Below, in pieces: positions 19,868-34,902 of a stretch of DNA of 35,673 nt (its first letter is position 1; each line of letters begins with the position of its first letter). The notes beneath the pieces were generated by a model. It did not search any database, was not told where the DNA came from, and saw nothing but the letters and a program-made list of their open reading frames with translations. Made by a program: the position numbers and the translations under genes. Origin of the DNA: Gemmatimonadaceae bacterium (lineage in GTDB: Bacteria; Gemmatimonadota; Gemmatimonadetes; Gemmatimonadales; Gemmatimonadaceae); contig JADGQS010000018.1 in assembly GCA_017881585.1 (NCBI GenBank), positions 1 through 35,673 on the forward strand, read 5' to 3'.

Positions 19868-20233
19868 ATGGTGGCTCCAACGGTGCTCATTTGCGATGAC
19901 GCGATCTTCATGCGAACGATGGTCAGCGACATCCTGCAGCAGGCCGGCTTCGAGGTCGTGGGTGAGGCCGAGACCGGCGCGCAGGCGGTGGAGCGCTACA
20001 AGCAGCTTCGCCCGGACCTCGTCACGATGGACATCGTGATGCCCGACATGGGCGGAATCGACGCGGTGCGTGAAATCACGAAGTTCGATCCGGACGCGAA
20101 AGTGCTCATGTGCAGCGCGATGGGCCAGCAGGCGCTCGTCGTCGAGGCGATCCAGGCGGGAGCCAAGGACTTCGTGGTCAAGCCATTCCAGCCGAGCCGC
20201 GTGCTGGAAGCCGTCCAGCGCGTGCTCGGCTGA
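19868..20233 (+). CDS. cheY: Chemotaxis response regulator CheY
   Basis: The 121-residue single receiver domain has the acidic pair Asp10-Asp11, phospho-acceptor Asp55 in TMDIVMPDM, switch Ser in CSAMGQQ and the conserved Lys in FVVKPFQPSRV. The SAMGQQ and KPFQPSRV segments are of the type seen in Thermotoga and Bacillus CheY rather than enterobacterial CheY, fitting the CheC/CheD partners nearby. A GGGGGA ribosome-binding site stands just upstream of the ATG. The output target is not a flagellar switch seen here; it may act on motility machinery elsewhere or on the MglA module. Confidence 0.92.
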   Translation: MVAPTVLICDDAIFMRTMVSDILQQAGFEVVGEAETGAQAVERYKQLRPDLVTMDIVMPDMGGIDAVREITKFDPDAKVLMCSAMGQQALVVEAIQAGAKDFVVKPFQPSRVLEAVQRVLG

Positions 20234-20276
20234 GCGCGCGACCGTCTCCCCGCCGAGCGTTCCGAGGCCGCAGACG

Positions 20277-22226
20277 ATGAGTCTCGATCCGTCGCGCTAC
20301 GCCGAGCTCTTCCGAACCGAGAGCCGCGAACAGCTGTCGGCGATCAACCGCGCGCTGCTGCTCCTCGAGCAGGGTGGTGATGCCGCGGAGCCGATCAGCG
20401 TGCTGTTCCGCGCCATGCACACGGTGAAGGGCATGAGCGCGACGATGGGGTACCACGCCGTCGCGGAGTTCGCACACGAACTCGAATCCGTGCTCGACCG
20501 CGTGCGCCGGGGCGACCAGCTGCTGGCGCCGGATCTCATGGACGCGCTGTTCGCGTCCGCCGACGCGCTCGAGACCGCCATCGACGAAGGGTCGGAGCAG
20601 GCGGGACAGACGCCCGCGATGGTCGCCGCGCTGCAGCGGCTCCGCGACGTCGCCGGCGGATCGTCGACGAGCGAGTTCCCGGGCGCGCCGACAAAGGAGA
20701 CGGGGGCGCTCGTGGAGGTCGCCGTCGCCGATCCGCTCGACGGCCCGGGCGTGATCGTGCGCGTTCGCCAGGCCGCGGACGCGATGCTCCCCGGCGTGCG
20801 CGCGTTCATGGCGGTACAGCGCGTACGCGCGCTCGGGGAAGTCGCGGCCGTGAACCCATCGCTGGACGCGCTGCAGGCGTCGGCCGTGCCGATATCGTTC
20901 GCCATGCGCGTGGTGACCACGGCGTCCGTCGACGAGATCGAGCACGCCGTGCGGTCCGCGGGCGACGTCGCGTTCGTCGAGGTGGACGTGTCCGGGCGCA
21001 CGCGCCGCGAGTCGCGATCGACGATCGCGGTCGTGGCCGAGGGCGAGGAAGTCACGCGCGCGTCGGCGCGTTCCACGCGGCACGTGCGCATCGACCTCGC
21101 GCGGCTCGACGCGCTGATGAACCTGATCGGCGAGCTCGTGATCACGCGCGGACGGCTGCTGCAGCTCACCGCGTCGAACCCCGATCCCGCGCTCGACGAA
21201 TCCATGCAGATGGCCGCGCGGCTCGTGTCGGACCTGCAGACGGAAATCATGACGATGCGCATGGTGCCCGTGTGGCAGGTGTTCGACCGCTTTCCGCGCC
21301 TCGTCCGCGACTCGGCACGCGCGCTGAACAAGGACGTGACCTTCGTCGTCGAGGGGAAGGAGATCGAGCTCGACCGCTCGCTGCTCGACGAAATCGGCGA
21401 GCCGATCGTGCACCTCCTGCGCAACGCGATCGGGCACGGCATCGAGTCGCCGGCGGAGCGGGCCGCCGCGGGGAAGCCGCGCGCGGGGCGCCTCGTGCTC
21501 AGCGCCGCGCGCGACCGCGCGGCCGTGCTGATCCGCGTGAGCGACGACGGCCGCGGCATCGACCGCCCGCGTGTGCTGGCGCGCGCCCGCGCGCTCGGAC
21601 TCGTGGACGAGGGCACGCGCGAGGTCGACGACGACGCGCTTTTCCGGCTGATCGCGCGGCCCGGACTCTCCACGGCCGAGCAGGTCTCGGATCTCTCGGG
21701 ACGCGGCGTGGGCATCGACGCGGTGCAGGTCAAGACGCGCGCGCTCGGCGGTTCGGTGGAGCTCAAGACCGTCGCCGGCGAGGGCACGACGATCACGATC
21801 CGGCTCCCCATCACGCTCGCGATCGTGCGCGCGCTGCTCGCGAGGTCGGGCACCGAGCGCTATGCGCTGCCGCTCACGCACGTGCGCGAAACGCTCGAGT
21901 ACGATCGCGATGTCGTGCAGCACGTGAAGGGAAAGCCCGTGCTCGTGCTGCGTGACGAGGTGCTGCCGCTGCTCGACCTGCGCGACGTGGTGCGGCAGCG
22001 CGCCGCACCGTTTGCCGGCGGCCCGAACCGCGAGATCGTGGTGATCGAGCGCGGCGACCGGAAGTCGGGGCTCGTGGTGGACGAGCTCATCGGACAGCAG
22101 GACATCGTGGTGAAGCAGTTCGACGCGGCGCGTGACGGCCTCGCGCTGTTCAGCGGTGCGACCATCCTCGCGGACGGCGCGCCGGCATTGATCATGGACG
22201 TGGGCAGTCTCTTCGAGGGGACCTGA
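20277..22226 (+). CDS. cheA: Chemotaxis histidine kinase CheA
   Basis: The 649-residue protein has the P1 Hpt domain with phospho-acceptor His48 in AMHTVKGMSAT, a middle region (about 150-255) in the place of P2, the dimerisation domain from about 275 with RIDLARLDALMNLIGELV, the HATPase domain with HLLRNAIGHGIES (379-391), VSDDGRGID and SGRGVGIDAV, and the C-terminal CheW-like P5 domain. It phosphorylates CheY and CheB. In the N-box the usual Asp (NAIDHG) is Gly386. The ATG at 20277 gives the P1 domain its normal start; longer in-frame extensions overlap cheY. The gene is three bases before cheC. Confidence 0.94.
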   Translation: MSLDPSRYAELFRTESREQLSAINRALLLLEQGGDAAEPISVLFRAMHTVKGMSATMGYHAVAEFAHELESVLDRVRRGDQLLAPDLMDALFASADALETAIDEGSEQAGQTPAMVAALQRLRDVAGGSSTSEFPGAPTKETGALVEVAVADPLDGPGVIVRVRQAADAMLPGVRAFMAVQRVRALGEVAAVNPSLDALQASAVPISFAMRVVTTASVDEIEHAVRSAGDVAFVEVDVSGRTRRESRSTIAVVAEGEEVTRASARSTRHVRIDLARLDALMNLIGELVITRGRLLQLTASNPDPALDESMQMAARLVSDLQTEIMTMRMVPVWQVFDRFPRLVRDSARALNKDVTFVVEGKEIELDRSLLDEIGEPIVHLLRNAIGHGIESPAERAAAGKPRAGRLVLSAARDRAAVLIRVSDDGRGIDRPRVLARARALGLVDEGTREVDDDALFRLIARPGLSTAEQVSDLSGRGVGIDAVQVKTRALGGSVELKTVAGEGTTITIRLPITLAIVRALLARSGTERYALPLTHVRETLEYDRDVVQHVKGKPVLVLRDEVLPLLDLRDVVRQRAAPFAGGPNREIVVIERGDRKSGLVVDELIGQQDIVVKQFDAARDGLALFSGATILADGAPALIMDVGSLFEGT

Positions 22227-22229
22227 GCC

Positions 22230-22844
22230 GTGGACGACATTCGCAAACTCAAGGCGCTTCAGCTCGACGCCCTGCGCGAGGTGGCGAACATCGGCGCGGG
22301 TCACGCCGCGACCGCGCTTTCGCAGATGACGGGCCAGACGATCATGATCAGCGTGCCGCAGATCAACATCGCGCCGCTCGAGGACATTCCGAACCAGGTC
22401 GGCTCCCACGAGGAGCCGGTGGCCGCCGTGCTCATGAAGATCCTCGGCGACCTCACCGGCCTCGCGCTGCTCGTGTTCACGCAGCCCACCGCGCTGCGCG
22501 TGGCGGGCCTCATGATGAAGAAGGAGAACCTGACGGAACTCGACGAGATCGGGCAGTCGGCGCTGCGCGAGGCGGGGAACATCCTGAGTGCCGCGTATCT
22601 CAACGCGCTCAGCGAGTTCATGGGGATGATCCTGCTGCCGTCGCCGCCGTCGCTGGCGATCGACCTGTCCGACGCCGTGATGAGCGCGACGTTCCTCGAG
22701 GTCGCGCAGGGCGCCGACTACGCCTTCTGCGTCGAGACCGAGTTCCAGTTGAAGGAGCTCAACGAGACGTTGCGCGGGTTCTTCTTGCTGCTTCCCGACC
22801 TCGGCAGCCTCACCGCCATCCTCCGCGCGATTCGCGTGGGCTGA
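22230..22844 (+). CDS. cheC: CheY-P phosphatase CheC
   Basis: The 204-residue protein carries both CheC active sites of the D/S-x3-E-x2-N type: Asp13-Glu17-Asn20 in DALREVANIGAGHAATAL, and Ser110-Glu114-Asn117 in SALREAGNILSAAYLNAL. CheC dephosphorylates CheY-P and in Bacillus and Thermotoga binds CheD, linking the output to receptor deamidation. A cheD gene lies further down the same operon, so this feedback loop is likely to operate here. The GTG at 22230 follows the cheA stop by three bases and places the first helix correctly. Confidence 0.93.
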   Translation: MDDIRKLKALQLDALREVANIGAGHAATALSQMTGQTIMISVPQINIAPLEDIPNQVGSHEEPVAAVLMKILGDLTGLALLVFTQPTALRVAGLMMKKENLTELDEIGQSALREAGNILSAAYLNALSEFMGMILLPSPPSLAIDLSDAVMSATFLEVAQGADYAFCVETEFQLKELNETLRGFFLLLPDLGSLTAILRAIRVG

Positions 22845-22852
22845 TCGACGCC

Positions 22853-25561
22853 GTGTCCGCTCCCCTCGCCTCCGACCGCGATCGCGACACGCTGAAGTCG
22901 TTCGCGCGGCGCATCGATCCGTCCGACGCGGGCGCGCACAACAACCTGGGCGTCCTCTACTACAACAAGGGGCTGTACGAGGAGGCGGCGGCCGCGTTCA
23001 CGAAGGCGCTCGAGCTCGACCCGAAGATGCAGGTGGCGCAGCGCAACCTCGAGGTCGCGTACTTCAACACGGGCTACTACGACCGTCGCATCGCCGAGCT
23101 GCGCGAGAAGCTGCGCTTCCGCGTGGACGACCGCGACGCGCGCTGGGAGCTCGGCCGCGCGTACGCACTGCTCGGGCAGTCGGACGAGGCCGTCGCCGAG
23201 TTCACGGCGCTGCTGCGGCACCATCCGAACGATCTCGGCGCCGTCGTCCAGCTCGGGCTCGCGGAGAAGGCGAGCGGCAATCTCGGCGCCGCGCAGCACT
23301 GGTTCGAGGACGCGATCCGGCTCGATCCCGCGAGCTCGGTCACGCGCTTCTATCTCGGCGAGGTGCTCTACAACCAGGGACGCATCGAGGAAGCGCTCGA
23401 TGCGCTCAAGCGCGCGATCGAGCTGAATCCCGAGAATCCCGACGCGCAGTTCCTGCTGAGCTTCGTGTACGGCGACATGGGACGGCACGAGGAGGCCGCC
23501 GCCGCGAGCAAGCGCGCGGTGCAGCTCAATCCGACGCTGTCGCGCGCGCAGGCCAACCTCGCGATCGACCAGCGCAACCCGGGCGGGGACGCGGAGCTGC
23601 CGGCGGGCGTTCACGAGCGCCGTGCGCAGCGCATGATGCAGGTGAGCGAAGGCGTGGAACTCGCGCACTACAACCTCGGGCTCGCGTTCCGGCAGAAGGG
23701 CTACTACGCCGAGGCGCAGCGCGAGTACGAGCTTGCGCTCGAACGCGGCGAGGATCGGGCGCTCGTGCTGCAGGCGATGGCCGAGGTGCACCTGCTGCGC
23801 AAGGATCCCGAGGGCGCGATCGCGCTCTACGACAACCTGATCGTCGAGTCGCCGCACAGCCCAAAGCTGTGGAACGAGCGCGGTGTCGCGGTGCACCAGG
23901 GCGGCCGATTCGCCGAAGCGGCCGGGAATTATCGCAGGGCGCTTGAGGCCGATCCGCACTACGCGATCGCGCACAACAATCTCGGCGTGGCGCTCTATCA
24001 CGCGGGCGATCGCGAGCACGCGGTGGACGCGTTCCGCGATGCGCTCGCCACGAACGCCGGCTTCGTGAAGGCGCGGCTCAACCTCGGACTGCTGCTCACG
24101 AAGAGCCGCCGCTTCCAGCTGGCCCTCGAGGCGTACAAACAGGTGCTGGTGACGCAGCCGGAGAACCCGCTCGCATGGAACGGCATCGGGCTGGTGCTCG
24201 GCGAGCTGCGCAAGTTCGAGGACGCGCGCAACGCGTTCGCGCGGGCGATCCAGGCGCGGCCCGATTTCGCCGAGGCGCACTACAACCTGAGCTTCACGCT
24301 CTCGAACCTCGGCGATCACGAGGGTGCGCTGCGCGAGACCAAGCGGGCGCTCGAGCTCGATCCCTATTACGTCGCGCAGAAGTTCTCGCTCGCGATCGAC
24401 CTCGAATACGAGGATCCCGATCTCTCGGTGGTCCCGGATCTCGGCGGCGAGCAGCGCATGAGCGGCGAAGTGGAGAGCTTCACGTTCGACCCGCGCCTGC
24501 TCGAGTCGCTCTTCAGCGAACTCGCACCGCCGCCCGAGCCGGCGCCGCAGCTCGTCGTGGAAGCGGACGCGTTCACGATGGCCGCCGACTACCTCTCGAC
24601 GGGGCTGTACGATCGCGCGATGGCCGAAGCGAGCCGCGCCATTGCACGGGGTGCGGATGCGGCGGAAGGGAATGCGCTGCTCGGCGACATCCTGTGCCGT
24701 CAGGGTGCGTACGGCGACGCGCTCGAGAAGTATCGCGCGGCGCGTGTGGCGAATCCGCATCATCTGCGCGCGCAGCGCGGCGAAGCGCAGACGCTGCTGC
24801 TGCTCGGGCGCGGGCCGGAAGCCCGTGATGTGTCGGAGCAGGTGCTCGCCGCCGCGCCACGGGACGTGGACGCGCTCATGCTGGCCGCGACGTGCCGGTT
24901 CGAGGCCGGCGACCCTTCGGCGGCGCTCGAGGCGCTCGAGGCCGCGCGAGTCCTCGCGCCGCGCCGCGCCGACGTGCTGCGCTGGATCGGCAACATCACG
25001 CGCTCGCTGGGCGACGTCGACGGCGCGATACGCGCGTATCGCGACGCGCTCGCGCTCGACGCCGATTTTGCCGCGGTGCGATTCGATCTCGCGCGGCTGC
25101 TCATGCAGCGCGAACTGTGGTCCGAGGCGGAGCGGGAACTCGTGGCCGCGCTCGACGCGGTGCCGACGTACGCCGAGGCGACGCTCGAGCTCGCCACGCT
25201 GCGCCGGGTCACGGGGCAGCAGCAGGAGGCCGTGAGCCTGCTCGTCGACCTGCTGCAGCGCGACTCGTACAACTTCGACGGCCACATCTCGCTCGGCGAG
25301 ACGCTCATCGAACTGAATCGCCCCGCCGACGCGGCGACCGCGTTCCGGCGCGTGCTCGCGTTCGATCCCGACCATGCGGGCGCGACGTTCTATGACGGCG
25401 TGATCCTCGCCGGCCAGAAGCGCTACCGCGATGCCATCGAACGCTGGCACCGTGTGGTGGAGCTCGAGCCCGCCGGCGAGTACGCCCGGCGCGCGCGGCG
25501 TGAAATGCGCACGGCGGAAGACCTGCTTACGGTGTTCGGCAGCCGGCTCGGAGGTCACTGA
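22853..25561 (+). CDS. Large tetratricopeptide-repeat protein, function unknown
   Basis: The 902-residue protein consists almost wholly of TPR units (for example AHNNLGVLYYNKGLYEEAAA, ALDALKRAIELNPENPDAQF and AHYNLSFTLSNLGDHEGALR). They form two superhelices of about residues 15-515 and 575-895. The break between them (about 520-570) is acidic and Pro-rich and contains VESFTFDPRLLESLFSEL. There is no signal peptide or transmembrane segment, so it is cytoplasmic. TPR arrays are scaffolds, and position between cheC and the DUF4388/Roadblock/MglA genes suggests it assembles the complex or links it to its target. The GTG start at 22853 is eight bases after cheC. Confidence 0.88.
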   Translation: MSAPLASDRDRDTLKSFARRIDPSDAGAHNNLGVLYYNKGLYEEAAAAFTKALELDPKMQVAQRNLEVAYFNTGYYDRRIAELREKLRFRVDDRDARWELGRAYALLGQSDEAVAEFTALLRHHPNDLGAVVQLGLAEKASGNLGAAQHWFEDAIRLDPASSVTRFYLGEVLYNQGRIEEALDALKRAIELNPENPDAQFLLSFVYGDMGRHEEAAAASKRAVQLNPTLSRAQANLAIDQRNPGGDAELPAGVHERRAQRMMQVSEGVELAHYNLGLAFRQKGYYAEAQREYELALERGEDRALVLQAMAEVHLLRKDPEGAIALYDNLIVESPHSPKLWNERGVAVHQGGRFAEAAGNYRRALEADPHYAIAHNNLGVALYHAGDREHAVDAFRDALATNAGFVKARLNLGLLLTKSRRFQLALEAYKQVLVTQPENPLAWNGIGLVLGELRKFEDARNAFARAIQARPDFAEAHYNLSFTLSNLGDHEGALRETKRALELDPYYVAQKFSLAIDLEYEDPDLSVVPDLGGEQRMSGEVESFTFDPRLLESLFSELAPPPEPAPQLVVEADAFTMAADYLSTGLYDRAMAEASRAIARGADAAEGNALLGDILCRQGAYGDALEKYRAARVANPHHLRAQRGEAQTLLLLGRGPEARDVSEQVLAAAPRDVDALMLAATCRFEAGDPSAALEALEAARVLAPRRADVLRWIGNITRSLGDVDGAIRAYRDALALDADFAAVRFDLARLLMQRELWSEAERELVAALDAVPTYAEATLELATLRRVTGQQQEAVSLLVDLLQRDSYNFDGHISLGETLIELNRPADAATAFRRVLAFDPDHAGATFYDGVILAGQKRYRDAIERWHRVVELEPAGEYARRARREMRTAEDLLTVFGSRLGGH

Positions 25562-25563
25562 CC

Positions 25564-26667
25564 GTGGCGATCGAAGGACCCCTTCGCGAACTCGGCATCC
25601 ACGACGTCTTCCAGCTGCTCGACCTGAGCCGCAAGACGGGAACACTGGCGGTCACCTCGGAACTGCGCGACAACGAGGGGACGGTGCACTTCCAGAACGG
25701 CCGCGTCGTGGCCGCAAAGATCAAGAGCAATCCGCACCGCATCGGCGACCTGCTCATGCGCGCCGGCCGCGTGACGGCCGCGCAGGTGGCGGAGGCGAGC
25801 GCCGCGCAGGTGGAGCGCGGCGACCGCCGCCGCCTGGGCGAGATCCTGCTCGACATGGGCGCGATCACGCAGAAGGAGCTCGAGCGGCAGATCCGGATCC
25901 AGATCGAGGCGGTCGTCTTCGAGCTCCTCTCGTGGCGAGAAGGATTCTTCCGCTTCGAGGAAGGACCGATGCAGGGCGAGCCGATGGTGCAGATCGGCAC
26001 GGAGGCGCTGCTGATGGAGGGCGCCCGCCGTATCGATGAATGGTCGCGCATTTCCGATCGCGTGCCGAGCCTGCTCGCGATTCCGCGGCTCACGTCGCTG
26101 CAGGACGACAGCCACGCGCCGATGCTCGACCTGCTGCCGAGCGAATGGGAGGTCCTGACGATGATCGACGGCGCGCTGGACCTGCGTGCGATCGCTGCGA
26201 GGCTCGCGCGCACCGAGTTCGACACGGCCAAGGTCGTCTATGGACTCGTCAGCACCGGCGTGGTCGAGCTCACGGTTCCCGCGTCGGTGGCGGAACGGGT
26301 CGCGGCGCGCGCGTCCACGCCGGCGAGTCCGATGCGCGCGGTGGCCGATGTCCCGACTCCCGTGATCGGGGCGCCCACCGTGACGTCTCCTGCCGCGGTG
26401 CCGGCGGCTCCCGGGGCGCTGCGCGCGCCGACGATCACGGACGACCTGCCGCCGCTCACCGCGAAGCACGAACCGCCGCCCATGGCCGACGGCATCGACG
26501 ATCTCGAGCGCGGATTCCAGTACCTGCTGCGCGGCGACTTCGACAGCGCCGTGGTGTCGTGGGCCTTGTGGCTGCATTCGCACTCGAACGACGCGATGGC
26601 GGAAAAGGTTCGCGCCGGTCTCGAGGCCGCCGCGCGCCTGCGCGGGCTCGTGGAGGCGCGCTACTGA
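25564..26667 (+). CDS. PATAN/DUF4388-domain protein with winged-helix-like region
   Basis: Residues 1-130 match the DUF4388 (PATAN) pattern: IHDVFQLLDLSRKTGTLAVT, then GTVHFQNGRVVAAKI, an alpha-helical insertion resembling the N-terminal domain of type II/IV secretion ATPases (RIGDLLMRAGRVTAAQVAEA and RRLGEILLDMGAITQKELE), then FFRFEEGPM. A winged-helix-like segment follows (about 195-245, SEWEVLTMIDGALDLRAIAA). After a Pro/Ala/Thr-rich linker (about 250-300) comes a single TPR-like hairpin. PATAN domains are associated with response regulators and MglA-type GTPases. It is paralogous to the protein at 30854-32473. The GTG start is two bases after the TPR gene; the stop overlaps the next ATG. 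Confidence 0.82.
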   Translation: MAIEGPLRELGIHDVFQLLDLSRKTGTLAVTSELRDNEGTVHFQNGRVVAAKIKSNPHRIGDLLMRAGRVTAAQVAEASAAQVERGDRRRLGEILLDMGAITQKELERQIRIQIEAVVFELLSWREGFFRFEEGPMQGEPMVQIGTEALLMEGARRIDEWSRISDRVPSLLAIPRLTSLQDDSHAPMLDLLPSEWEVLTMIDGALDLRAIAARLARTEFDTAKVVYGLVSTGVVELTVPASVAERVAARASTPASPMRAVADVPTPVIGAPTVTSPAAVPAAPGALRAPTITDDLPPLTAKHEPPPMADGIDDLERGFQYLLRGDFDSAVVSWALWLHSHSNDAMAEKVRAGLEAAARLRGLVEARY

Positions 26668-27479
26668 TGAGCGACGACATCCGCGCCCTCAGCGAGACGC
26701 TCGCGGCCGATCCGTCGAGCGTGGTGTTCGTGCAGCTCGGCGAGGCCTTGCGCCGCTCCGGACAGCTGGAACTCGCCTGGCGCGTCGCCTCGCGCGGTCT
26801 CGAGCGGCACGCGCAGCGCGCCGACGCGCACGATCTGGTCGCGCGCATCGCCATCGATCGCGGCGATGTTCCGCGCGCGCGGGCCGAATGGGAGTCGGTG
26901 CTCACGCTGTCGCCGGGACACGGCGGCGCGCAGAAGGGACTCGGCTTCCTCTGTTTCCAGCAGGGCGACCTCGACGAGGCGGCGCGGTATCTCGGCGCCG
27001 CGCTCGCGAGCGATCCGCTCGACGAGTCGCTCGCGGCGGCGCTCGACACGGTTTACGCGTCGCATCCGGACCGGCGGCCGCTCGAAGAGGGGCCGACCGC
27101 GCCCGCGCCGGTCGTCGATGCGCGCACGCTGTTCCACGAAGTGCTCGGCGACCCGTCGCAGACCGCGATCCTGCTTGACGCGGATGGCTACGTTGTCGCG
27201 GGCCAGTATCTCACGGCGGACGGACGCGATCTCGGCGCCGACATCGGCGCGCAGCTCTCGGGGGTGAGCGACGAGGCGAATCGCGCCATGCGCCATCTCG
27301 GCCTCGGCCGCTGGCGCCAGATCGTCTTCGAGTCGGAGACCGCGAGCGTGGCGATGGCGCCGAGCGGCGGTGGCGTGCTGCTCGTCGCGGCGCCGCGGTC
27401 CGTCCCGCTCGGATATGTCCGGCGCCTGTTGGAACGGTCGCTCGAGCGCGCACGCCGCTGGATGGGACGGCGCGCATGA
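26667..27479 (+). CDS. TPR-Roadblock/LC7 fusion protein
   Basis: Residues 1-120 contain about three TPR-like hairpins (FVQLGEALRRSGQLELAWRV and AQKGLGFLCFQQGDLDEAAR). After a Pro-rich linker, residues 145-270 look like a Roadblock/LC7 domain, with TAILLDADGYVVAGQYLT for the central strand-turn-strand and VLLVAAPRSVPLGYVRRLLE for the C-terminal helix. Roadblock proteins such as MglB act as GTPase-activating partners of MglA. The ATG at 26667 overlaps the upstream stop. It is the first of three consecutive LC7-type proteins, and the only one fused to TPRs, which may bring the GTPase partner to a scaffold. Confidence 0.75.
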   Translation: MSDDIRALSETLAADPSSVVFVQLGEALRRSGQLELAWRVASRGLERHAQRADAHDLVARIAIDRGDVPRARAEWESVLTLSPGHGGAQKGLGFLCFQQGDLDEAARYLGAALASDPLDESLAAALDTVYASHPDRRPLEEGPTAPAPVVDARTLFHEVLGDPSQTAILLDADGYVVAGQYLTADGRDLGADIGAQLSGVSDEANRAMRHLGLGRWRQIVFESETASVAMAPSGGGVLLVAAPRSVPLGYVRRLLERSLERARRWMGRRA

Positions 27480-27486
27480 GAAAACC

Positions 27487-27834
27487 ATGAGCAGCCCGTT
27501 CACCGCGCTCCTCGCATCGCTCATCCGCCACCGCGGCGTCACCGGCTGCATGGTGGTGGGCGAGGCCGACGGCATGATCGTCGACTCGAGCCTGCAGATC
27601 GGCGTGAATGGCGAGGCGTTCGCGGCACTCACCGCGTCGATGTATCGCAAAGCGAGACGGGCGGCGGCGGCGGCGGGATTCGGCCCGACCGGATTCTTCG
27701 AGCTCGACGCCGACGGCGGCCGCATGTGCGCGGCGGGGAGGAACGATCTCGTCATTGTCGTCCTGGCCGAGCCGAGGGTGAACGTCGGGCTGCTCCGCGT
27801 CGAGATGCTGAAGGCGCTGGAGGCGTTCGCATGA
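27487..27834 (+). CDS. Roadblock/LC7-domain protein (second)
   Basis: The 115-residue protein is a single small domain with TALLASLIRHRGVTGCMVVG, EADGMIVDSSLQIG, a central helix and VIVVLAEPRVNVGLLRVEML, the order of elements in the Roadblock/LC7 fold. The ATG at 27487 follows the previous gene by seven bases and the stop overlaps the next start. By family it should dimerise and contact the MglA-type GTPase encoded 520 bases further on. It is shorter than Myxococcus MglB (159), and I cannot identify which of the three LC7 proteins is the true MglB equivalent. Confidence 0.75.
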   Translation: MSSPFTALLASLIRHRGVTGCMVVGEADGMIVDSSLQIGVNGEAFAALTASMYRKARRAAAAAGFGPTGFFELDADGGRMCAAGRNDLVIVVLAEPRVNVGLLRVEMLKALEAFA

Positions 27835-28301
27835 GGCTGTCCGTCGCCGAAGACTGGGTCGAGGCGCCCCTCAAGCAGTTCGTGGATGAGGCGCGCGTGC
27901 AGCTGGCCGTGCTGTTGAATCGGAGCGGGCAGGTGCTCGGCCAGTACGGGTTCGCGAGCTCCGTGGACGTGATGACCGCGTGCGCGCTCGCGGCGGCGAC
28001 GACGGCGTCTTCGGCGGAGCTCGGCCGGCTGGTGGACGGCAAGCCGTTCGCCGGACTGCACTACGCCGGGAATGTGCGGCAGATCTTCCTCGGGCAGATA
28101 TCGATGCGAGCCGGCTCGCTGATCCTGCTGGCGGTGTTCGACGACGAGAGTTCGCTCGGCCTGGTGCAGCTGTTCTTCGCGGAACTCTGCGCGAGCCTCG
28201 CGGCTGTCGTGCCGGCGGATGCACCGGCGGCGCCCGCGCTGGCGGAGGATTTCGAACGCGAGCTGCACCGCAATCTCGCCGCGATGTTCGGGCGTTCATG
28301 A
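27831..28301 (+). CDS. Roadblock/LC7-domain protein (third, MglB-like candidate)
   Basis: The 156-residue product contains VQLAVLLNRSGQVLGQYGFA, then DVMTACALAAATTASSAELG and IFLGQISMRAGSLILLAVFD, which follow the Roadblock/LC7 pattern used by MglB. A C-terminal extension ends AEDFERELHRNLAAMFGRS, a possible amphipathic helix. Its length and position directly before the MglA-type GTPase make it the best candidate for the MglB-like GTPase-activating protein. The start overlaps the upstream LC7 gene by four bases. A 52-base gap with a CATCCCGGATC-type repeat separates it from mglA. Confidence 0.78.
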   Translation: MRLSVAEDWVEAPLKQFVDEARVQLAVLLNRSGQVLGQYGFASSVDVMTACALAAATTASSAELGRLVDGKPFAGLHYAGNVRQIFLGQISMRAGSLILLAVFDDESSLGLVQLFFAELCASLAAVVPADAPAAPALAEDFERELHRNLAAMFGRS

Positions 28302-28353: not shown

Positions 28354-28953
28354 GTGTCACTAGTCAACTACGCAGCCCGCGAAATCACGTGCAAGATCGT
28401 TTACTACGGCCCGGGACGGTCCGGGAAGACGACGAACCTGCATTACATTTACGGCCAGGTGCCGGGTGACCGGAAAGGGCAGATGGTCTCGCTGGCAACG
28501 CAGACGGACCGCACGCTGTTCTTCGATTTTCTTCCGCTCGACCTCGGGATCATCTCGGGGTTCACGACGCGATTCCAGCTCTATACGGTGCCGGGACAGG
28601 TGTACTACCAGACCACACGACGGCTCGTGCTGCAGGGCGCCGACGGCGTCGTGTTCGTCGCGGACAGCCAAGCCCGGCAGCTCGACGAAAACATCGAGTC
28701 GATGCAGGACCTCCACGCGAATCTCGCGGAACACGGCGTCGACGCGCGCACCGTGCCCCTCGTGATCCAGTACAACAAGCAGGACCTGCCCGCCGACCTC
28801 ATCCTCAGTGTGCCCGAACTCGAGGAGCAACTCAACTTCCGCGGGGTGCCGTCATTCGCGGCCGACGCGCTGCACGGCCCGGGCGTGTTCGAGACGCTGC
28901 GCGCGGTGAGCGAGCAGGTGCTCCGCAAGTTGAGCGCGGGCGGAGGGGGCTGA
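28354..28953 (+). CDS. mglA: MglA-type small Ras-like GTPase
   Basis: The 199-residue protein has a P-loop GPGRSGKTTN (Lys25), the switch region TQTDRTLFFDFLPLDLG, the family-specific TVPGQVYYQTTRRLVLQGAD (with TVPG in place of the usual DxxG) and the guanine-binding NKQD in IQYNKQDLPAD. It is close in pattern to Myxococcus MglA (starts NYAAREITCKIVYYGPG), which sets cell polarity for gliding and type IV pili and is regulated by the Roadblock protein MglB. The GTG at 28354 gives the family N-terminus; upstream in-frame ATG codons would add 45 unrelated residues. Three LC7 genes precede it and a DnaA-like ATPase gene follows after two bases. Confidence 0.93.
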   Translation: MSLVNYAAREITCKIVYYGPGRSGKTTNLHYIYGQVPGDRKGQMVSLATQTDRTLFFDFLPLDLGIISGFTTRFQLYTVPGQVYYQTTRRLVLQGADGVVFVADSQARQLDENIESMQDLHANLAEHGVDARTVPLVIQYNKQDLPADLILSVPELEEQLNFRGVPSFAADALHGPGVFETLRAVSEQVLRKLSAGGGG

Positions 28954-28955
28954 GC

Positions 28956-30854
28956 GTGCAGCTCGATCCGCGGCTCCGGTTCGACAGCCTCGTGGTGGGC
29001 GCGGGGAACCGCCTCGCGGTGGCGGCCGCGCGAGCCGTGGCCGAGTCGCCGGGCGCGGTCTACAACCCGTTGTTCATCTATGGCGGCACCGGGCTCGGCA
29101 AGACGCACCTGCTCTGCGCCGTGGGACACTTGGCGGCCGCTTTGCAGCCGCAGCTCGAGATCGAGTACCTCTCGCTCGACGAGTTCGTCGAGCAGCTGCA
29201 TGCCTCGGTCTCCGCCGGGCAGATGGACGCGTTCTCGCGCCGCTACGAGCGCGTGGGACTCCTGCTCATCGACGACGTGCAGTTCCTCACCGGGCGACGC
29301 GAGACGCAGGCCGAGCTCCTGCGGCTGTTCGAGCGCATGCAGGCCGCGGGCGGCCAGGTGGTGCTCACGAGCGACCGCCCGCCGGCCGAGATCCCGGACG
29401 TCGACGAGCGGCTGATCAGCCGGCTCTCGGGTGGGCTCATCGCGGACGTCACCGCGCCGGACTACGAGACGCGCGTCGCGATCCTCCGCGCGAACTGCGA
29501 GGAGCGCCACCTCGAGTTCACGAACGGCGTGCTCGAGGAGCTCGCGCGGTTCAACTTCAACAACGTGCGCGCGCTGCAGGGCGCGCTCAACCGGCTCGTC
29601 GTGGCCGAGGCGGTCAGCGCGGACGAGGAACCGTCCGCGAAGACGGTGCAAAAGCCGGCGCCGAAGGAGCGTCCCACCGGCGAGTTCGAGAGCTTCCTCT
29701 CCGAAGTCACGACGGTCGTGCAGCAGCAGGTCGAGTCGTGGCAGGCGAGGCTGCGCGAGGCGATCGCGTACTGGAACGGCGAGGGATACCGCACCGCCGT
29801 GCTCGCGCGCGCTCTCACGCTGACCAAGGCCCCCGACGTCGCGGGTCTGCTCTCGACGTTCACGGCGGCCGTGGAACACCTGCGCGACCTCGAGCGCGCC
29901 GCCGCGGACGTGGATCTCGCGCTCGGCAGCGATCCCGTGTTCCGCGATCCCGAGCGGATGGCGGCGGCGGAGGACCTCGTCGAGCGCGCGCTGGCGGGCG
30001 AGACGCCGCCGGGCGGGCCGAGTCCCGCGTTCACGCGCGACGCGTTCGAGGTGGGAACGTCGAACCAGCTCGCCGTCCATGCCGCCGACGCGGTCATCGC
30101 GTCGCCCGGGGTGAAGTACAATCCCTTGCTGATCCACGGCGCGAGCGGCGTGGGAAAGACGCACCTGCTGCACGCCATCGGCAACGCACTCGTGCTGGCG
30201 CGCGGCTCGCGGCTCGTCGTCGCGTGCGTGCACGCCCAGCAGTTCATCGACGAGCTGATCACGTCGATCCAGGGCGGGACGATCGAACGCTGGCGCGCCC
30301 GGTATCGCTCCGTGGACGCGCTCCTGATCGACGACGTGCACTTCATCGCGGACAAGGAGCGCACGCAGGACGAGCTCTTCCTGCTGTTCAACGAGATCGT
30401 CAACGCGGGGAAGCAGGTCGTGCTCACGAGCGACCAGCCTCCCTCCGTGATTCCCGATCTGGAGGCGCGGCTGCGCTCGCGGTTCGAGGGCGGGCTCGTC
30501 GTTCCCATCCAGGCGCCCGACCGCGCCCTGCGCGAGAAACTCTTCGCGCGATTCCTCGCCGCGGCGGGCCGGGAGTCCGACGCGCACCTGCTCGCGCTGC
30601 TCGGCCAGCAGCCGGTGCAGAGCGTGCGCGAGATCATCGGCGTCGTGAACCGGCTGGGCGCGGCGGCGCAGGCGGCAGGCGTGCCGCTCGACGCCAAGCT
30701 CGTGCGCCGTGAACTCGGCGCGGTCACGCCCTACGCCGGCGTATCCGTCATCGCGCAGGCGAACGACGGGCGCGACCCCGCGTTCATGGACGCCGAGAAG
30801 ATCGTGTGGGACTGGCCTGAAGTCGGCGCGCGCGTGATCGAGGAGTTCCGCTGA
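28956..30854 (+). CDS. Tandem DnaA-like AAA+ ATPase without a DNA-binding domain
   Basis: The 632-residue protein holds two DnaA domain-III modules. Module 1 (about 8-225) has RFDSLVVGAGNRLAV, Walker A GGTGLGKTHLL (Lys49), Walker B LLLIDDVQFL (Asp106-Asp107), sensor-1 VVLTSDRPP and sensor-2 NNVRALQGALNRL. Module 2 (about 368-585) has AFEVGTSNQLAVHAA, GASGVGKTHLL (Lys401), LLIDDVHFIADKERTQDELF (Asp459-Asp460), VVLTSDQPPSVIPDLEARLR and VREIIGVVNRL. A helical linker of about 140 residues joins them. There is no domain I and no domain IV helix-turn-helix signature, so it should not act as a replication initiator. The GTG start has a GGAGGGGG ribosome-binding site; the stop overlaps the next ATG. 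Function unknown; co-translated with MglA and DUF4388 proteins. Confidence 0.85.
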   Translation: MQLDPRLRFDSLVVGAGNRLAVAAARAVAESPGAVYNPLFIYGGTGLGKTHLLCAVGHLAAALQPQLEIEYLSLDEFVEQLHASVSAGQMDAFSRRYERVGLLLIDDVQFLTGRRETQAELLRLFERMQAAGGQVVLTSDRPPAEIPDVDERLISRLSGGLIADVTAPDYETRVAILRANCEERHLEFTNGVLEELARFNFNNVRALQGALNRLVVAEAVSADEEPSAKTVQKPAPKERPTGEFESFLSEVTTVVQQQVESWQARLREAIAYWNGEGYRTAVLARALTLTKAPDVAGLLSTFTAAVEHLRDLERAAADVDLALGSDPVFRDPERMAAAEDLVERALAGETPPGGPSPAFTRDAFEVGTSNQLAVHAADAVIASPGVKYNPLLIHGASGVGKTHLLHAIGNALVLARGSRLVVACVHAQQFIDELITSIQGGTIERWRARYRSVDALLIDDVHFIADKERTQDELFLLFNEIVNAGKQVVLTSDQPPSVIPDLEARLRSRFEGGLVVPIQAPDRALREKLFARFLAAAGRESDAHLLALLGQQPVQSVREIIGVVNRLGAAAQAAGVPLDAKLVRRELGAVTPYAGVSVIAQANDGRDPAFMDAEKIVWDWPEVGARVIEEFR

Positions 30855-32473
30855 TGGCCATCAAGGGCAGCTTGAAAGAGGCGAGCCTCCCCGACGTGCT
30901 CCAGCTCCTCGCGATGGGGAAGAAGACCGGATGCCTGTCGGTCACGCACCGGAACAACTTCGGCTCCATCTATTTCGACAAGGGTCGCATTTGCTACGCG
31001 GCGATCGTGAACCGCCGCGACCGGCTCGGTGACATCCTCCTCAAAAGCGGCGCGATCACGCCCGCGCAGCTGCAGGAGGCGATCGAGTCGCAGGAAAAGC
31101 AGCGCGACAAGCGGCTCGGCGAGATTCTCGTGGGGCTCGGCATCATCTCGCGCGACGACCTGCACAAGCAGATCCGGCTGCAGATCGAGGAGGCCGTGTA
31201 TTTCCTGTTCACGTGGACGCAGGGCACGTTCAACTTCGAGGCGGACATCCGACCCGAAGAGCAGGACTTCCTGGTGCTGATCAACCCCGAGTCGCTCCTG
31301 CTCGAAGGGGCGCGGCGCGTGGACGAGTGGAGCCTCATCGAGAAGAAGATCCCGTCGTTCGATATCGTATTCGACATCGACCTCAGGCGCCTCGACGAGA
31401 GCGCCGCGAAGCTCACGCAGGAACAGCAGGTCCTGCTGCCGCTGATCGACGGCCGGCGCGACGTGTTCGCGATCATCGAGGACTCGGGGCTGGTGGAGTT
31501 CCAGGTCGGCAAGGCGCTGTACGGTCTCTCCACCGCGGGCTTCCTGCATCGCGTGGGCAAGTCGCGCGCGCCGGACGTGATCGCGCCCGACGCGCGCGTG
31601 GAAGAGCACCGCAACCTCGGCATGGCGTTCTACAAGACCGGCATGCTCGACGAAGCCGAGCGCGAATTCCGGCGCGTCGTGGAGCTGCGCGCGAGCGACA
31701 TGCACGCGCGGTTCTTCCTCGGGCTCGTGCACCTGCGGCTCGCGCGCTGGGACGACGCGGTCTCCGACTTCGAGTACGCCGCGCACCAGCGCGGCGCGGC
31801 TCCGGCCGTCCTGCACAATCTCGCGTTCGCGTTCGAGCGGAAGGGAGAGCCGGCCAAGGCGCGTGAAACATTGCGCGAGGCGGTGAAGCGCGGCGGCGAA
31901 CACGATGCGCGCGTGCACACGTCGCTCGGCGTGCTCGCGCTGCGCGAGGGCGACCTCGCGGCCGCGGAGGCGAGCTTCCTCGCCGCGCGTCCGCTGTTCG
32001 ACGGGCGCCCGCCGTCGCCCGCGTGGTTCCACTATGCGGCGCTCTGCTTCGCGCTCGCGGGCAAGGCGGACGAGGCGATCGCCTTGCTGCAGGAGGGCGT
32101 CGAGGCGTATCCGCACGCCGCGGTACTCCACAACAACCTCTCGGTGGCGTTCGAGCGCGTCGGACGCCATCAGGAGGCGCTCGCGGCGGCGGAACGCGGC
32201 GTCTCCGAGGATGCGGGAATCGCGCAACTGCACAAGAACATCGGCGACGCGCATTATCGCGTGGCACTCTTCGACGAGGCCTACGACGCGTACCAGCGCG
32301 CGGTGAAGTTCAACGACACGCTCGGACCCGACGTGTGGCTCAAGCTCGGCAACATCCGCCTCAAGCGGAACGAGCGCGACGACGCCATCAAGTGCTGGGA
32401 GCATGCGCTGCAGCTCGACCCGGCCAACCAGACCGCGCGCAAGAACATCGAGGCGGCCCGGGCGGCCACGTGA
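30854..32473 (+). CDS. PATAN/DUF4388 protein with C-terminal TPR array
   Basis: Residues 1-130 repeat the plan of the upstream DUF4388 protein: MAIKGSLKEASLPDVLQLL, KKTGCLSVT, GSIYFDKGRICYAAI, RLGDILLKSGAITPAQLQEA and RLGEILVGLGIISRDDLHK, then QGTFNFEADIRP. A winged-helix-like segment (about 185-235, EQQVLLPLIDGRRDVFAIIE) follows, then about seven TPRs from residue 250 to the end (for example HRNLGMAFYKTGMLDEAERE and LHNNLSVAFERVGRHQEALA). It is cytoplasmic, with no signal or membrane segment. PATAN plus TPR suggests an adaptor between a GTPase or receiver and a larger complex. The ATG overlaps the DnaA-like stop and its own stop overlaps cheR. Confidence 0.88.
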   Translation: MAIKGSLKEASLPDVLQLLAMGKKTGCLSVTHRNNFGSIYFDKGRICYAAIVNRRDRLGDILLKSGAITPAQLQEAIESQEKQRDKRLGEILVGLGIISRDDLHKQIRLQIEEAVYFLFTWTQGTFNFEADIRPEEQDFLVLINPESLLLEGARRVDEWSLIEKKIPSFDIVFDIDLRRLDESAAKLTQEQQVLLPLIDGRRDVFAIIEDSGLVEFQVGKALYGLSTAGFLHRVGKSRAPDVIAPDARVEEHRNLGMAFYKTGMLDEAEREFRRVVELRASDMHARFFLGLVHLRLARWDDAVSDFEYAAHQRGAAPAVLHNLAFAFERKGEPAKARETLREAVKRGGEHDARVHTSLGVLALREGDLAAAEASFLAARPLFDGRPPSPAWFHYAALCFALAGKADEAIALLQEGVEAYPHAAVLHNNLSVAFERVGRHQEALAAAERGVSEDAGIAQLHKNIGDAHYRVALFDEAYDAYQRAVKFNDTLGPDVWLKLGNIRLKRNERDDAIKCWEHALQLDPANQTARKNIEAARAAT

Positions 32474-33306
32474 ACGACACGGCGGACGACGGCGCCTTCG
32501 TCGCGCTGACGTCGAAGATCGCCCGCGATCGCGGATTCGGCGCGGCGAACTACAAGGACACGTGCATGCGCCGCCGCATCGCCGTGCGCATGCGGGCCCG
32601 CGGCGCGGCGGACTTCGCGGCGTACAGCCGGCTGCTCGACAGCGATCCCGCCGAGTACGAGTGGCTGATCGCGGTGCTCACGATCAACGTCACCAAGCTA
32701 TTCCGGAATGCGGAGGCGTGGGACGCGGTGGCGCACTCCGTCCTTCCCGCGCTCTGGTCGCTGCCGTCGCCGCGCCTGAATTGCTGGGTCGCTGGCTGCG
32801 CGTCCGGAGAGGAGGCATATACGCTGGCGGCGCTCTGGCTGCAGCACGCGTCTGCACACACCCGGCCGGGCGAGCCTGGCGGCGCGAGCCGCGTGCGCGT
32901 GACCGCGAGCGACATCGATCGCGAGAGTCTCGCGGCGGCCGAGGCCGGCACGTACGCCGACGATTCGTTCGCCGAGGCGCCAGCCGGCGTGCGCGAGCGC
33001 TGGTTCGCTCCCGCGGAGAAAGGGGGCCGGTGGACGGCGGGTCCGGAGCTGCGCGCGATCATCCGCTTCGAGCGCCGCGACCTGCTGCTGGATCCCGCGC
33101 CGGCCGTCGCGATGCACCTGATCACCTGCCGCAACGTGATCATCTACTTCGACCGCGAGTCGCAGGAGGCGCTCATGCAGCGCTTCCACGATTCGCTCGC
33201 GCCGGGCGGGTATCTCGTGCTCGGCAAGGTCGAGACGCTGCTCGGCCCGTCGCGTGCGCTGTTCGACGCCGTGGACTCGCGGCAGCGCATCTTCCGGCGC
33301 CCGTGA
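32470..33306 (+). CDS. cheR: Chemotaxis protein methyltransferase CheR
   Basis: The 278-residue protein has the CheR N-terminal helical domain (NYKDTCMRRRIAVRMRARG), the LTINVTKLFRNAEAWD segment, the SAM-binding motif WVAGCASGEEAYTLA and the later ASDIDRESLAAA, with CRNVIIYFDRESQEALM. It methylates receptor glutamates using S-adenosylmethionine. The GTG at 32470 overlaps the previous stop as GTGA and gives the correct N-terminal domain. The presence of CheR and CheB requires receptors, which are not in this window. Confidence 0.94.
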   Translation: MNDTADDGAFVALTSKIARDRGFGAANYKDTCMRRRIAVRMRARGAADFAAYSRLLDSDPAEYEWLIAVLTINVTKLFRNAEAWDAVAHSVLPALWSLPSPRLNCWVAGCASGEEAYTLAALWLQHASAHTRPGEPGGASRVRVTASDIDRESLAAAEAGTYADDSFAEAPAGVRERWFAPAEKGGRWTAGPELRAIIRFERRDLLLDPAPAVAMHLITCRNVIIYFDRESQEALMQRFHDSLAPGGYLVLGKVETLLGPSRALFDAVDSRQRIFRRP

Positions 33307-33779
33307 AGGAGATTCGCGTGCGCATCGCTCATCACGCCGTGGCCAAGGGGCGCTCCCGTCTCGTGACGATCGGCCTGGGCTCGTGCGTGGCGATCGCGAT
33401 CCACGACCGCGCGGCGAAGGTCGGCGGGCTTGCACACGTGCTGCTGCCGGACGCGGCGCTCGGCCGCGGCGTCGAGAATCGCGCGCGCTATGCGTCGACC
33501 GCCGTTCCGCTGCTGCTCGACGAGATGAAGGCCATCGGGGCGACCGGTCCGTTCGCCGCCTCGCTCGCGGGCGGCGCGGCGCTGTTCGGACCGCTGCTCG
33601 CGTTCGGCGGTTCCGTCGGAGCGCGCAACATCGAGGCGGCGCGCACGGCGCTCGCCGCCGCGCGCGTTCCGGTGGTGGCGGAGGATGTCGGCGGCGAAAG
33701 CGGCCGGACGGTGTCGTTCGACGTGTCCACCGGCGAGGTGCACGTGCGGTCGGTGCGGGGGGGCGAGCATGTCTTATAA
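33303..33779 (+). CDS. cheD: Chemoreceptor glutamine deamidase CheD
   Basis: The 158-residue protein has the catalytic cysteine Cys28 in GLGSCVAIAIHD and His45 in GGLAHVLLP, the Cys-His pair of the CheD deamidase, and the later GGAALFGPLLAFG...IGARN-type segment (here VGARNIEAAR). CheD deamidates receptor glutamines and binds CheC, whose gene lies upstream in the same operon. The GTG at 33303 overlaps the cheR stop; a GTG at 33318 would remove five residues and is also acceptable. The end overlaps the start of cheB by 11 bases. Confidence 0.93.
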   Translation: MKEIRVRIAHHAVAKGRSRLVTIGLGSCVAIAIHDRAAKVGGLAHVLLPDAALGRGVENRARYASTAVPLLLDEMKAIGATGPFAASLAGGAALFGPLLAFGGSVGARNIEAARTALAAARVPVVAEDVGGESGRTVSFDVSTGEVHVRSVRGGEHVL

Positions 33780-34902
33780 AGAGTCCCGCATCCCGGATCG
33801 CAGTGACAAAGAGTCCCGTATCCCGGATCGCAGCGCACGGCGCACGGTCCTCGTCGTCGACGACAGCGCGCTCGTGCGCCAGGTGGTGTGCGACCTGATC
33901 GCCGGCTTCGACGAGTTCGAGGTGATCGGCACCGCGCACGACGGCCTCGACGCGCTCACCAAGGTGCATGCGCTCGACCCCGACATCGTCACGCTCGACA
34001 TCGAGATGCCGGTGATCGACGGCATCGCCGCGCTCGGCTACATCATGAGCGAGGCGCCGCGCGCGGTCGTGATGCTCAGCGGCGTCGAGTCGCGCGGCGC
34101 GGTGGACCTCACGCTGCGCGCGCTCGAACTCGGTGCGGTGGACTTCGTGCGCAAGCCGGCCGGCACGTTTGCCGATGCGATGCCCGCGATGGCGAGCCGG
34201 CTCCTCGAGGCGCTGCGCGCGGCGGCCGTCGTCAACCTGCGCGGAGTTCCCGCGCTCGCCCGCGTCGCGCTCGAGACCGCCCGGGCGCGAATTTCGGCGC
34301 GAGGCGCGCGCGCGGCCGTCGCGATCGCCGCGTCGACGGGCGGTCCGCGCGCGCTCGTCGAGGTGGTCCCGGCGCTGACGCGGGAGCTCGACGCCGCGGT
34401 GCTCATCGCGCAGCACATGCCGAGGGGATTCACGGCCGGTCTCGCGCGGCGGCTCGACGCGATGTCGTCGCTCGAAGTGTCGGAGGCGACGCACGGCGAG
34501 GCGGTGCTCACCAACCACGTGTACATCGCGCCGGGCGGACAGCACATGACGGTGTCGTCGGACGGCTGGCAGGCCCGAATCGTGCTCGACGAATCGGAGC
34601 CCGTGTGGGGGGTGCGGCCCGCCGCAGACCCGCTCTTCGTGTCCGCAGCGAAACACTTCGGCGCCGCGTGCGTCGGCGTCGTGCTCACCGGAATGGGCCG
34701 CGACGGGAGTGCCGGGCTGGCGGCGATCCGCGCGGCCGGCGGCGGAGCCGTGGTGCAGGACCGCGCGACCGCGACGATTTACGGAATGCCGCAGTCTGCG
34801 CTCGAGCACGCCGGGGCGGACGTCGTCGCTCCGCTCGGATCCGTCGCGGCGGCGGTCCTGGAACTCATCGGCTCGCGGCGCGCGATCTGGAGCACCCGAT
34901 GA
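33769..34902 (+). CDS. cheB: Chemotaxis methylesterase/response regulator CheB
   Basis: An N-terminal receiver domain (about 25-140; Asp31-Asp32, phospho-acceptor Asp77 in LDIEMPVIDG) is joined to the methylesterase domain with its catalytic triad: Ser189 in AASTGGPRAL, His216 in AQHMPRGF and Asp312 in TGMGRDGSAG. It removes receptor methyl groups when phosphorylated by CheA. The first 23 residues are unusual: two copies of KESRIPDRS, encoded by a 30-bp tandem DNA repeat (33778-33837). CheB proteins normally begin almost directly with the receiver strand. No good later ATG precedes the receiver; the ATG at 33769 overlaps the cheD end. Confidence 0.95.
   Translation: MSYKESRIPDRSDKESRIPDRSARRTVLVVDDSALVRQVVCDLIAGFDEFEVIGTAHDGLDALTKVHALDPDIVTLDIEMPVIDGIAALGYIMSEAPRAVVMLSGVESRGAVDLTLRALELGAVDFVRKPAGTFADAMPAMASRLLEALRAAAVVNLRGVPALARVALETARARISARGARAAVAIAASTGGPRALVEVVPALTRELDAAVLIAQHMPRGFTAGLARRLDAMSSLEVSEATHGEAVLTNHVYIAPGGQHMTVSSDGWQARIVLDESEPVWGVRPAADPLFVSAAKHFGAACVGVVLTGMGRDGSAGLAAIRAAGGGAVVQDRATATIYGMPQSALEHAGADVVAPLGSVAAAVLELIGSRRAIWSTR
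33778..33837 (+). repeat. 30-bp tandem direct repeat at the start of cheB
   Basis: Two 30-bp units (33778-33807 and 33808-33837) share the core AAAGAGTCCCG(C/T)ATCCCGG then ATCGCAG and differ at one internal base and in their last four bases. Both are in the cheB frame and encode KESRIPDRSD and KESRIPDRSA. The core matches words in the gap before mglA, so this may be a dispersed intergenic repeat absorbed into a gene. Confidence 0.9.

Follow-up and report, generated by a model that had tools for sequence, protein, structure and literature searches.

Three diverged Roadblock/LC7 genes ahead of an MglA gene in a chemosensory cluster of Gemmatimonadota

In Myxococcus xanthus and Thermus thermophilus, a Group 1 MglA small GTPase is coupled to MglB, a regulator of the Roadblock/LC7 family. 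The M. xanthus MglB is a homodimer that acts on MglA asymmetrically: Asn37 and Arg98 of one protomer serve the GTPase-activating protein (GAP) activity, and the C-terminal helix of the other protomer serves nucleotide exchange (PMC11016934). The present study deals with three consecutive LC7 genes, called A, B and C, that precede the gene of a Group 1 MglA (MglA1) in a stretch of 35,673 nucleotides (the window), which represents contig C137 in a Gemmatimonadota genome of 3.09 Mb that is 90% complete. Tentatively, with a confidence somewhat short of even, these genes are read as encoding a Roadblock/LC7 regulator of several subunits, which would act on an MglA GTPase linked to chemosensing. As in the MglA-MglB systems, a Group 1 MglA stands beside an LC7 regulator, C being by its profile an MglB homologue, with a C-terminal element that may correspond to the MglB C-terminal helix. 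Unlike these systems, the locus includes two further, very diverged LC7 proteins, and C itself displays 27% profile-level identity to the canonical MglB of its own genome (E 1.4e-15), with Arg98 not in place.

In M. xanthus, too, a single MglA has several LC7 proteins about it: MglB and MglC act together with RomR and RomY and are linked to the Frz chemosensory system. The heteromeric LC7 assembly of MglB and MglC has been shown experimentally (PMC7949163, PMC10329633), MglB binding MglC in a 4:2 ratio (PMC7949163). MglB also has RomY as a co-GAP partner, and heteromeric complexes with GAP or guanine nucleotide exchange factor (GEF) activity are common among Roadblock proteins (PMC9481161). 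The locus differs from this case in that its LC7 genes form one overlapping string with mglA and Che genes, one of them carrying tetratricopeptide repeats (TPRs), and in that gene B is nearer to Asgard and actinobacterial Roadblocks than to MglC (E 0.044 for MglC vs 2.6e-13 for the best match).

The coupling of one MglA to more than one LC7 gene is already known from the 1:2 MglA:MglB systems (Wuichet and Sogaard-Andersen 2014), in which only one LC7 gene falls in the MglA-coevolving clade, and PATAN proteins are occasional neighbours of Group 1 MglA (PMC4316618). Compared with what the available part of that source describes, three LC7 genes are present here, one with TPRs, in a single order across families of a class. 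Another parallel is offered by Ragulator (LAMTOR2/3, LAMTOR4/5), whose stacked LC7 dimers form a platform for the small Rag GTPases, the fold of B being close to LAMTOR2/p14. The likeness is, however, one of fold only, and a heterodimer at the present locus is a proposal drawn from gene co-occurrence. Finally, the actinobacterial conservons (CvnA-D) unite a sensor kinase, an LC7 protein and an MglA-family GTPase in one operon, and B matches CvnB. Conservons are nevertheless described with a single LC7 gene and a Group 2 GTPase, and without Che genes (PMC4316618), whereas here the GTPase is of Group 1 by motif and the kinase is CheA, which places the locus outside the conservons.

Among the papers listed by the literature searches, which did not extend to the supplementary tables of PMC4316618, none deals with three LC7 genes in an MglA operon and none with MglA function in Gemmatimonadota; the presence of a Group 1 MglA in Gemmatimonadetes has been reported (PMC4316618). 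Every part of the locus comes from a known family, and its composition and the strict pairing of A with B are, as far as could be seen, new. The near-inseparability of this pair is a hint that the switch, so far examined mostly alongside a single simple regulator, is controlled here by a complex of several parts.

Order and co-occurrence of the four genes

The genes of the window named in this text all lie on its forward (+) strand. Gene A (26667-27479; 270 amino acids (aa), TPR repeats and a Roadblock/LC7 domain) is followed by gene B (27487-27834; 115 aa, a bare Roadblock/LC7 domain), gene C (27831-28301; 156 aa, an MglB-like Roadblock/LC7 protein) and MglA1 (28354-28953; 199 aa, GTG start). 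An earlier interpretation made from the DNA letters (the sequence-only reading) proved correct in its coordinates and sizes. Its statement that three consecutive and strongly diverged Roadblock/LC7 proteins precede an MglA is likewise borne out: A and B pass the Pfam model, C is tied to MglB by its family profile, and the profile-profile identities are 20% for A-B, 16% for A-C and 12% for B-C. With identities of 12-20% and each gene forming its own family in all loci, a recent tandem duplication of one LC7 gene is unsupported. Chance or misread reading frames were rejected through the family profiles and the conserved gene order.

Genome searches were confined to the phylum Gemmatimonadota, apart from built-in controls, and covered 297 genomes with a completeness of at least 85%. 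Across this sample, A and B form one unit, C is another and MglA1 a third. Gene A was counted at E <= 1e-8 (133 genomes). Gene B was found at E <= 1e-6 in 145 genomes, 134 of which were assigned to this type (E <= 4.3e-16, together with a partial match in G288 at 1.2e-11); the remaining matches, weaker and of an orphan LC7 type, were removed before the A-B count. A is also present in 133 of these 134 genomes, the lone exception being G226, where B stands at base 39 of its contig, and both genes are adjacent in the same order in 132/133. Gene C (E <= 1e-28; 132 genomes) lies on the contig of A in 127/133 genomes and on another contig in G267. It was not found in five, namely G080, G119 and G020, confirmed at the locus, and G133 and G288, by search only. 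C without A occurs in four genomes (G226, at the contig edge, G261, G306 and G086).

MglA was detected at E <= 1e-74 on the contig of A in 116 of the 133 genomes and on another contig in two. Among the 15 with none at this threshold, G041, G053 and G057, of one genus, have a 43-44% identical MglA in place, which is therefore diverged rather than lost. The cases that separate the units are G080 and G119, which keep A, B and MglA1 without C, and G020, which has A and B but neither C nor MglA1. They led to the idea that all three LC7 genes are kept or lost together, drawn from the first 47 loci, being dropped. Conversely, MglA without A was met in 30 of the 148 genomes listed (165 were tallied with MglA). 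In G023, G024, G032 and G033, MglA1 occurs with neither A nor C, and its locus showed no B; the genome-wide search for gene B covered G023, G032 and G033, with one weak orphan-type match in G033, and G024 was inspected at the MglA1 locus only.

The order A-B-C-MglA is complete in 42/47 loci of relatives with MglA1 (with a gene A truncated at the end of the contig in L040 and L078) and cut in one (L072), and the three LC7 genes are absent in four. A second sample came from a scan of named genomes with a C-specific pattern, in which 181 stretches matched, 103 were confirmed and the best 80 were kept, nearly all record titles being those of Gemmatimonadota metagenome-assembled genomes. All four genes are present in 74 of these 80 loci. 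In five others, A-B-C were found and no MglA, L120, L126 and L161 ending a few hundred bases past C and L136 and L150 having room for it. L099 begins within B. The gene A of L100, which overlaps B at the edge of its contig, is doubtful, and eight loci have a truncated or short gene A (<230 aa). The A-B-C-MglA arrangement is old, with the four genes in the same order in 16/16 loci from other families of the class. A and B overlap by 4 bases in 68/79 loci and by 1 base in 8, and B and C by 4 bases in 72/80 and by 1 base in 5; in the window, a 7-base gap without overlap separates A from B, and the start of C overlaps the stop of B by 4 bases.

Two side observations concern MglA1 in relatives. Loci L053, L054 and L055 (genus g25) carry a complete A-B-C set together with an MglA only 43-44% identical to that of the window, and this diverged GTPase could show which LC7 partner coevolves with it. 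In L038 and L050, MglA1 is relocated beside a string of pseudouridine synthase-like and lspA-like genes, where A, B and C are absent.

MglA1 matches M. xanthus MglA with 251 bits (phmmer, E 5e-74), and its translation includes the P-loop GPGRSGKTTNL, a DRT motif with the intrinsic arginine, TVPGQ and NKQD. As Group 1 MglA is defined by an intrinsic Arg beside the G2 Thr and by the G3 motif TVPGQ (PMC4316618), MglA1 is assigned to Group 1 by motif reading. The sequence-only reading spoke of one MglA, which is right for the locus and wrong for the genome. Indeed, a second MglA is located on contig C4 with its own canonical MglB (G000:C4:19721-20898, locus L056), a protein of 162 aa matching M. 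xanthus MglB at 1e-33 (phmmer). A twelve-genome comparison revealed this second MglA in 12/12 genomes with an MglB beside it in 11/12, no MglB being found in G023. Since A-B is one unit, C is of MglB type and separable from MglA1, and a second MglA/MglB pair exists, the earlier picture of three different partners for one GTPase proves too simple. The second MglA (225 aa) has an inserted or longer C-terminal part. A fifth LC7 protein (130 aa; L057:2043-2435, G000:C179) overlaps the reading frame of a downstream receiver-domain protein, and the weaker matches that profile B gives in further genomes may represent the same orphan type.

Features of the three Roadblock proteins

Gene A combines N-terminal TPRs (eight helices, about residues 2-132), a linker and a C-terminal LC7 domain (about residues 153-269). 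Pfam scores are 48.2 bits for TPR_19 and 27.1 bits for Robl_LC7, above the cut-off of 23, and Robl_LC7 is found at E <= 0.01 in 25/25 aligned relatives. In the AlphaFold2 model, the LC7 order of secondary structures is present and the mean predicted local distance difference test (pLDDT) value is 93.0, with 60-71 for the linker block; the low predicted template modelling (pTM) score of 0.59 is expected from loosely joined domains. When searched against solved structures, the profile of the LC7 part finds Thermus MglB (E 5e-5). Foldseek mostly returns TPR proteins, Asgard Roadblock3 (9jue_B) being at rank 39 with E 1.3e-5. The VIA-align rows for protein A, taken up by its TPR half, include no Roadblock chain and are uninformative on the LC7 half. 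The TPR part of A is missing in one genome group (L136, L150, L161, L045), three of which also have no MglA1.

Gene B is predicted to be a complete LC7 domain and nothing else. Robl_LC7 scores 23.7 bits (cut-off 23) and is found at E <= 0.01 in 26/26 aligned relatives, and the AlphaFold2 model (pLDDT 93.7, pTM 0.87) has the full order a-b-b-a-b-b-b-a. Structural comparison by VIA-align places it next to Asgard Roadblock3 (Z 18.8, root-mean-square deviation (rmsd) 1.6, 114 aligned residues) and p14/LAMTOR2 (Z 17.0, rmsd 1.7, 109 aligned), followed by MglB (Z 16.1), whereas MglC reaches Z 12.8 vs 16-19 for other Roadblocks. The profile search against solved structures agrees with this placement, Asgard Roadblocks coming out best, before the CvnB structure 3leq (1.2e-7) and MglB (1e-3). 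The match to the MglC structure 7ct3 is weak, and MglC is not among the matches listed for A or C.

Gene C is, by its sequence, an MglB homologue. Its family profile finds M. xanthus MglB with E 4.7e-17 and Thermus MglB with 2e-12 among solved structures. With the NCBIfam equivalog model of Thermus MglB, C scores 24.1 bits (E 3e-5), well short of the 200 bits that the model requires, so that C is named an MglB homologue and not a Thermus MglB equivalog. The Pfam Robl_LC7 score of 15.3 bits is below the cut-off of 23, and this domain is found at E <= 0.01 in 18/26 aligned relatives, the C of the window being among the eight missing; the Robl_LC7 model is described as missing some MglB homologues (PMC4316618). 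The N-terminal extension is kept, with an almost invariant Trp9. At the C-terminus, an element of the form FExxLxxxLxxLFGR is strongly conserved (F141 89%, E142 100%, L145 100%, L149 99%, F153 99%, G154 91%, R155 90%). The end of the genome's canonical MglB, EDEIDKLFG, aligns with the M. xanthus MglB end DDIDNLF, and the element of C would match, by its position and pattern, the C-terminal helix of M. xanthus MglB that is active in exchange. Neither an N-terminal extension nor such a C-terminal end is present in A or B, and B has no N-terminal strand extension or C-terminal extension of any kind.

The sequence-only reading had held the LC7 assignment of C to be the surest and had named a missing Roadblock fold in one or two of the three proteins as grounds for refutation. 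As far as Pfam goes, the ranking is reversed, A and B scoring above the cut-off and C below it, while C does have the best link to MglB. An LC7 domain was found in all three proteins, and the absence of the fold in any of them was thus not observed: A is covered by Pfam, the Thermus MglB profile and Foldseek, B by its predicted structure, and C by its profile match to MglB, here at the level of sequence only. As to the further suggestion of one activator plus two exchange or recruitment factors, C alone has the MglB-like C-terminal element, so that an exchange element, if anything, would sit on C, the MglB-like protein.

A candidate LC7 assembly and its alternatives

In the multi-subunit regulator proposed here, C would dimerise as MglB does, and the dimer would make contact with MglA1 and promote hydrolysis or exchange. 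Because its C-terminal element is conserved and Arg98 is poorly kept, C is taken as the MglA1-contacting, exchange-capable subunit, with uncertain GAP power. A and B would together constitute a second layer of LC7 domains, most likely as a heterodimer, and this layer might stack on the C dimer as the MglC homodimer binds MglB or as the LC7 layers of Ragulator bind each other. Such heteromeric LC7 complexes are plausible. The TPR arm of A and the neighbouring PATAN and TPR proteins would link the unit to the chemosensory kinase, whose signalling would alter the nucleotide state or position of MglA1 and, through it, type IV pili. Where a lineage has no MglA1, the target of the unit would need to be the second MglA or some other partner. 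A more specific version would make the locus a bacterial counterpart of Ragulator, with an A/B heterodimer on an MglB-like C dimer as a heteromeric, chemosensory-controlled GAP/GEF platform, TPR and PATAN arms as inputs and the DnaA-derived double AAA+ ATPase as remodeller; it is considered unlikely.

Several observations weigh against the multi-subunit regulator, and each bears on an alternative. The first concerns the residues of the GAP face. At the place of Arg98, C has Arg in 24% of some 80 rows and Ser in the window, an Arg standing two columns earlier in 74% of the rows, whereas the canonical MglB of these genomes has Arg, once Lys, among 21. The Asn37 place (Ser/Ala in C) is not diagnostic, as it also varies in the canonical MglB (Ser/Thr/Ala/Asn). 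C might therefore need a partner for the GAP face, as in a split MglB dimer where the unequal protomers of M. xanthus have become different genes and C pairs with B or A. The functional asymmetry of M. xanthus MglB (PMC11016934) and the confinement of the N-terminal extension and C-terminal element to C are consistent with such a division. It is nevertheless very improbable, as the alignments made show no clear counterpart of Arg98 in either A or B, C is strongly conserved itself, A-B occurs without C in three genomes examined, and MglA1 also exists without A, B and C.

The second concerns the pairing of A with B. Rate covariation, calculated over 73 loci common to four alignments (67 after removal of near-identical ones) as partial r given MglA1 distances, is 0.60 for A-B, 0.62 for A-C and 0.62 for B-C, and these about equal values do not single out A-B. 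Moreover, M. xanthus MglB and MglC are homodimers that bind each other as such (PMC7949163, PMC10329633), and the Asgard Roadblocks nearest to B are homodimers as well (PMC10933270), so that A and B may each homodimerise. There would then be three separate LC7 homodimers and no heterodimers, with C as GAP/GEF, B as scaffold and A as a TPR-based localisation adaptor, and the occurrence or loss of C independently of A-B would be in line with this. That A and B occur together and side by side almost without exception is more than independent jobs would demand, although membership of one pathway could also produce this, and the three-homodimer arrangement is judged unlikely.

The third concerns MglA1 itself. 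Three genomes keep A-B-C without MglA1 (recorded as G309-G311, and at loci L136, L150 and L161 with an A lacking TPRs), and one keeps A-B without it. MglA1 cannot thus be the sole partner of these proteins everywhere. Possibly, A and B are LC7 scaffolds for chemosensory, PATAN and AAA+ proteins, only C and the second MglB acting on GTPases. This would agree with the retention of PATAN and DnaA-like genes in the cluster of G020, which has A-B without MglA1 and C, and with the PATAN protein that adjoins gene A upstream in 69/69 named loci with enough flank. However, the frequency with which MglA1 shares the contig of A (116/133 genomes), and the fact that LC7 proteins beside MglA are usually its regulators (family knowledge; PMC4316618), make a purely scaffolding role of A and B improbable.

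Chemosensory neighbourhood

Upstream of A, the window encodes a receiver-domain protein (19868-20233), CheA (about 20274-22226) and CheC (22230-22844), all identified by Pfam, then a TPR protein of 902 aa (22853-25561; TPR_2, 278 bits) and the PATAN-type (DUF4388) protein (25564-26667; 121 bits), whose stop codon has one base in common with the start codon of gene A. Downstream of MglA1 lie a two-module DnaA-type AAA+ ATPase protein (28956-30854; Bac_DnaA, 352 bits in two stretches), a PATAN-type (DUF4388) protein with TPRs (30854-32473; 135 bits) and, again by Pfam, CheR (about 32497-33306), CheD (33303-33779) and CheB (within 33685-34902). Among named loci with enough flank, CheA was found in 53/56, CheC in 57/58, CheR in 56/63 and the PATAN-TPR protein in 64/64, the DnaA-type AAA+ protein standing directly after MglA1 in 66/68.

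The output of the system is probably exerted through type IV pili. Five strong matches to pilus/secretion ATPases were found in the genome, including an adjacent pair on C232. A search for flagellin in this 90% complete genome gave no match.

The AAA+ protein after MglA1 is 632 aa long. Its two AAA+ modules are complete, with two Walker A, two Walker B and two RxxSRxxGL-type motifs between them, and there is no Pfam match for the DnaA DNA-binding domain. It is unusual for a signalling cluster of the motility type to include a DnaA-derived ATPase.

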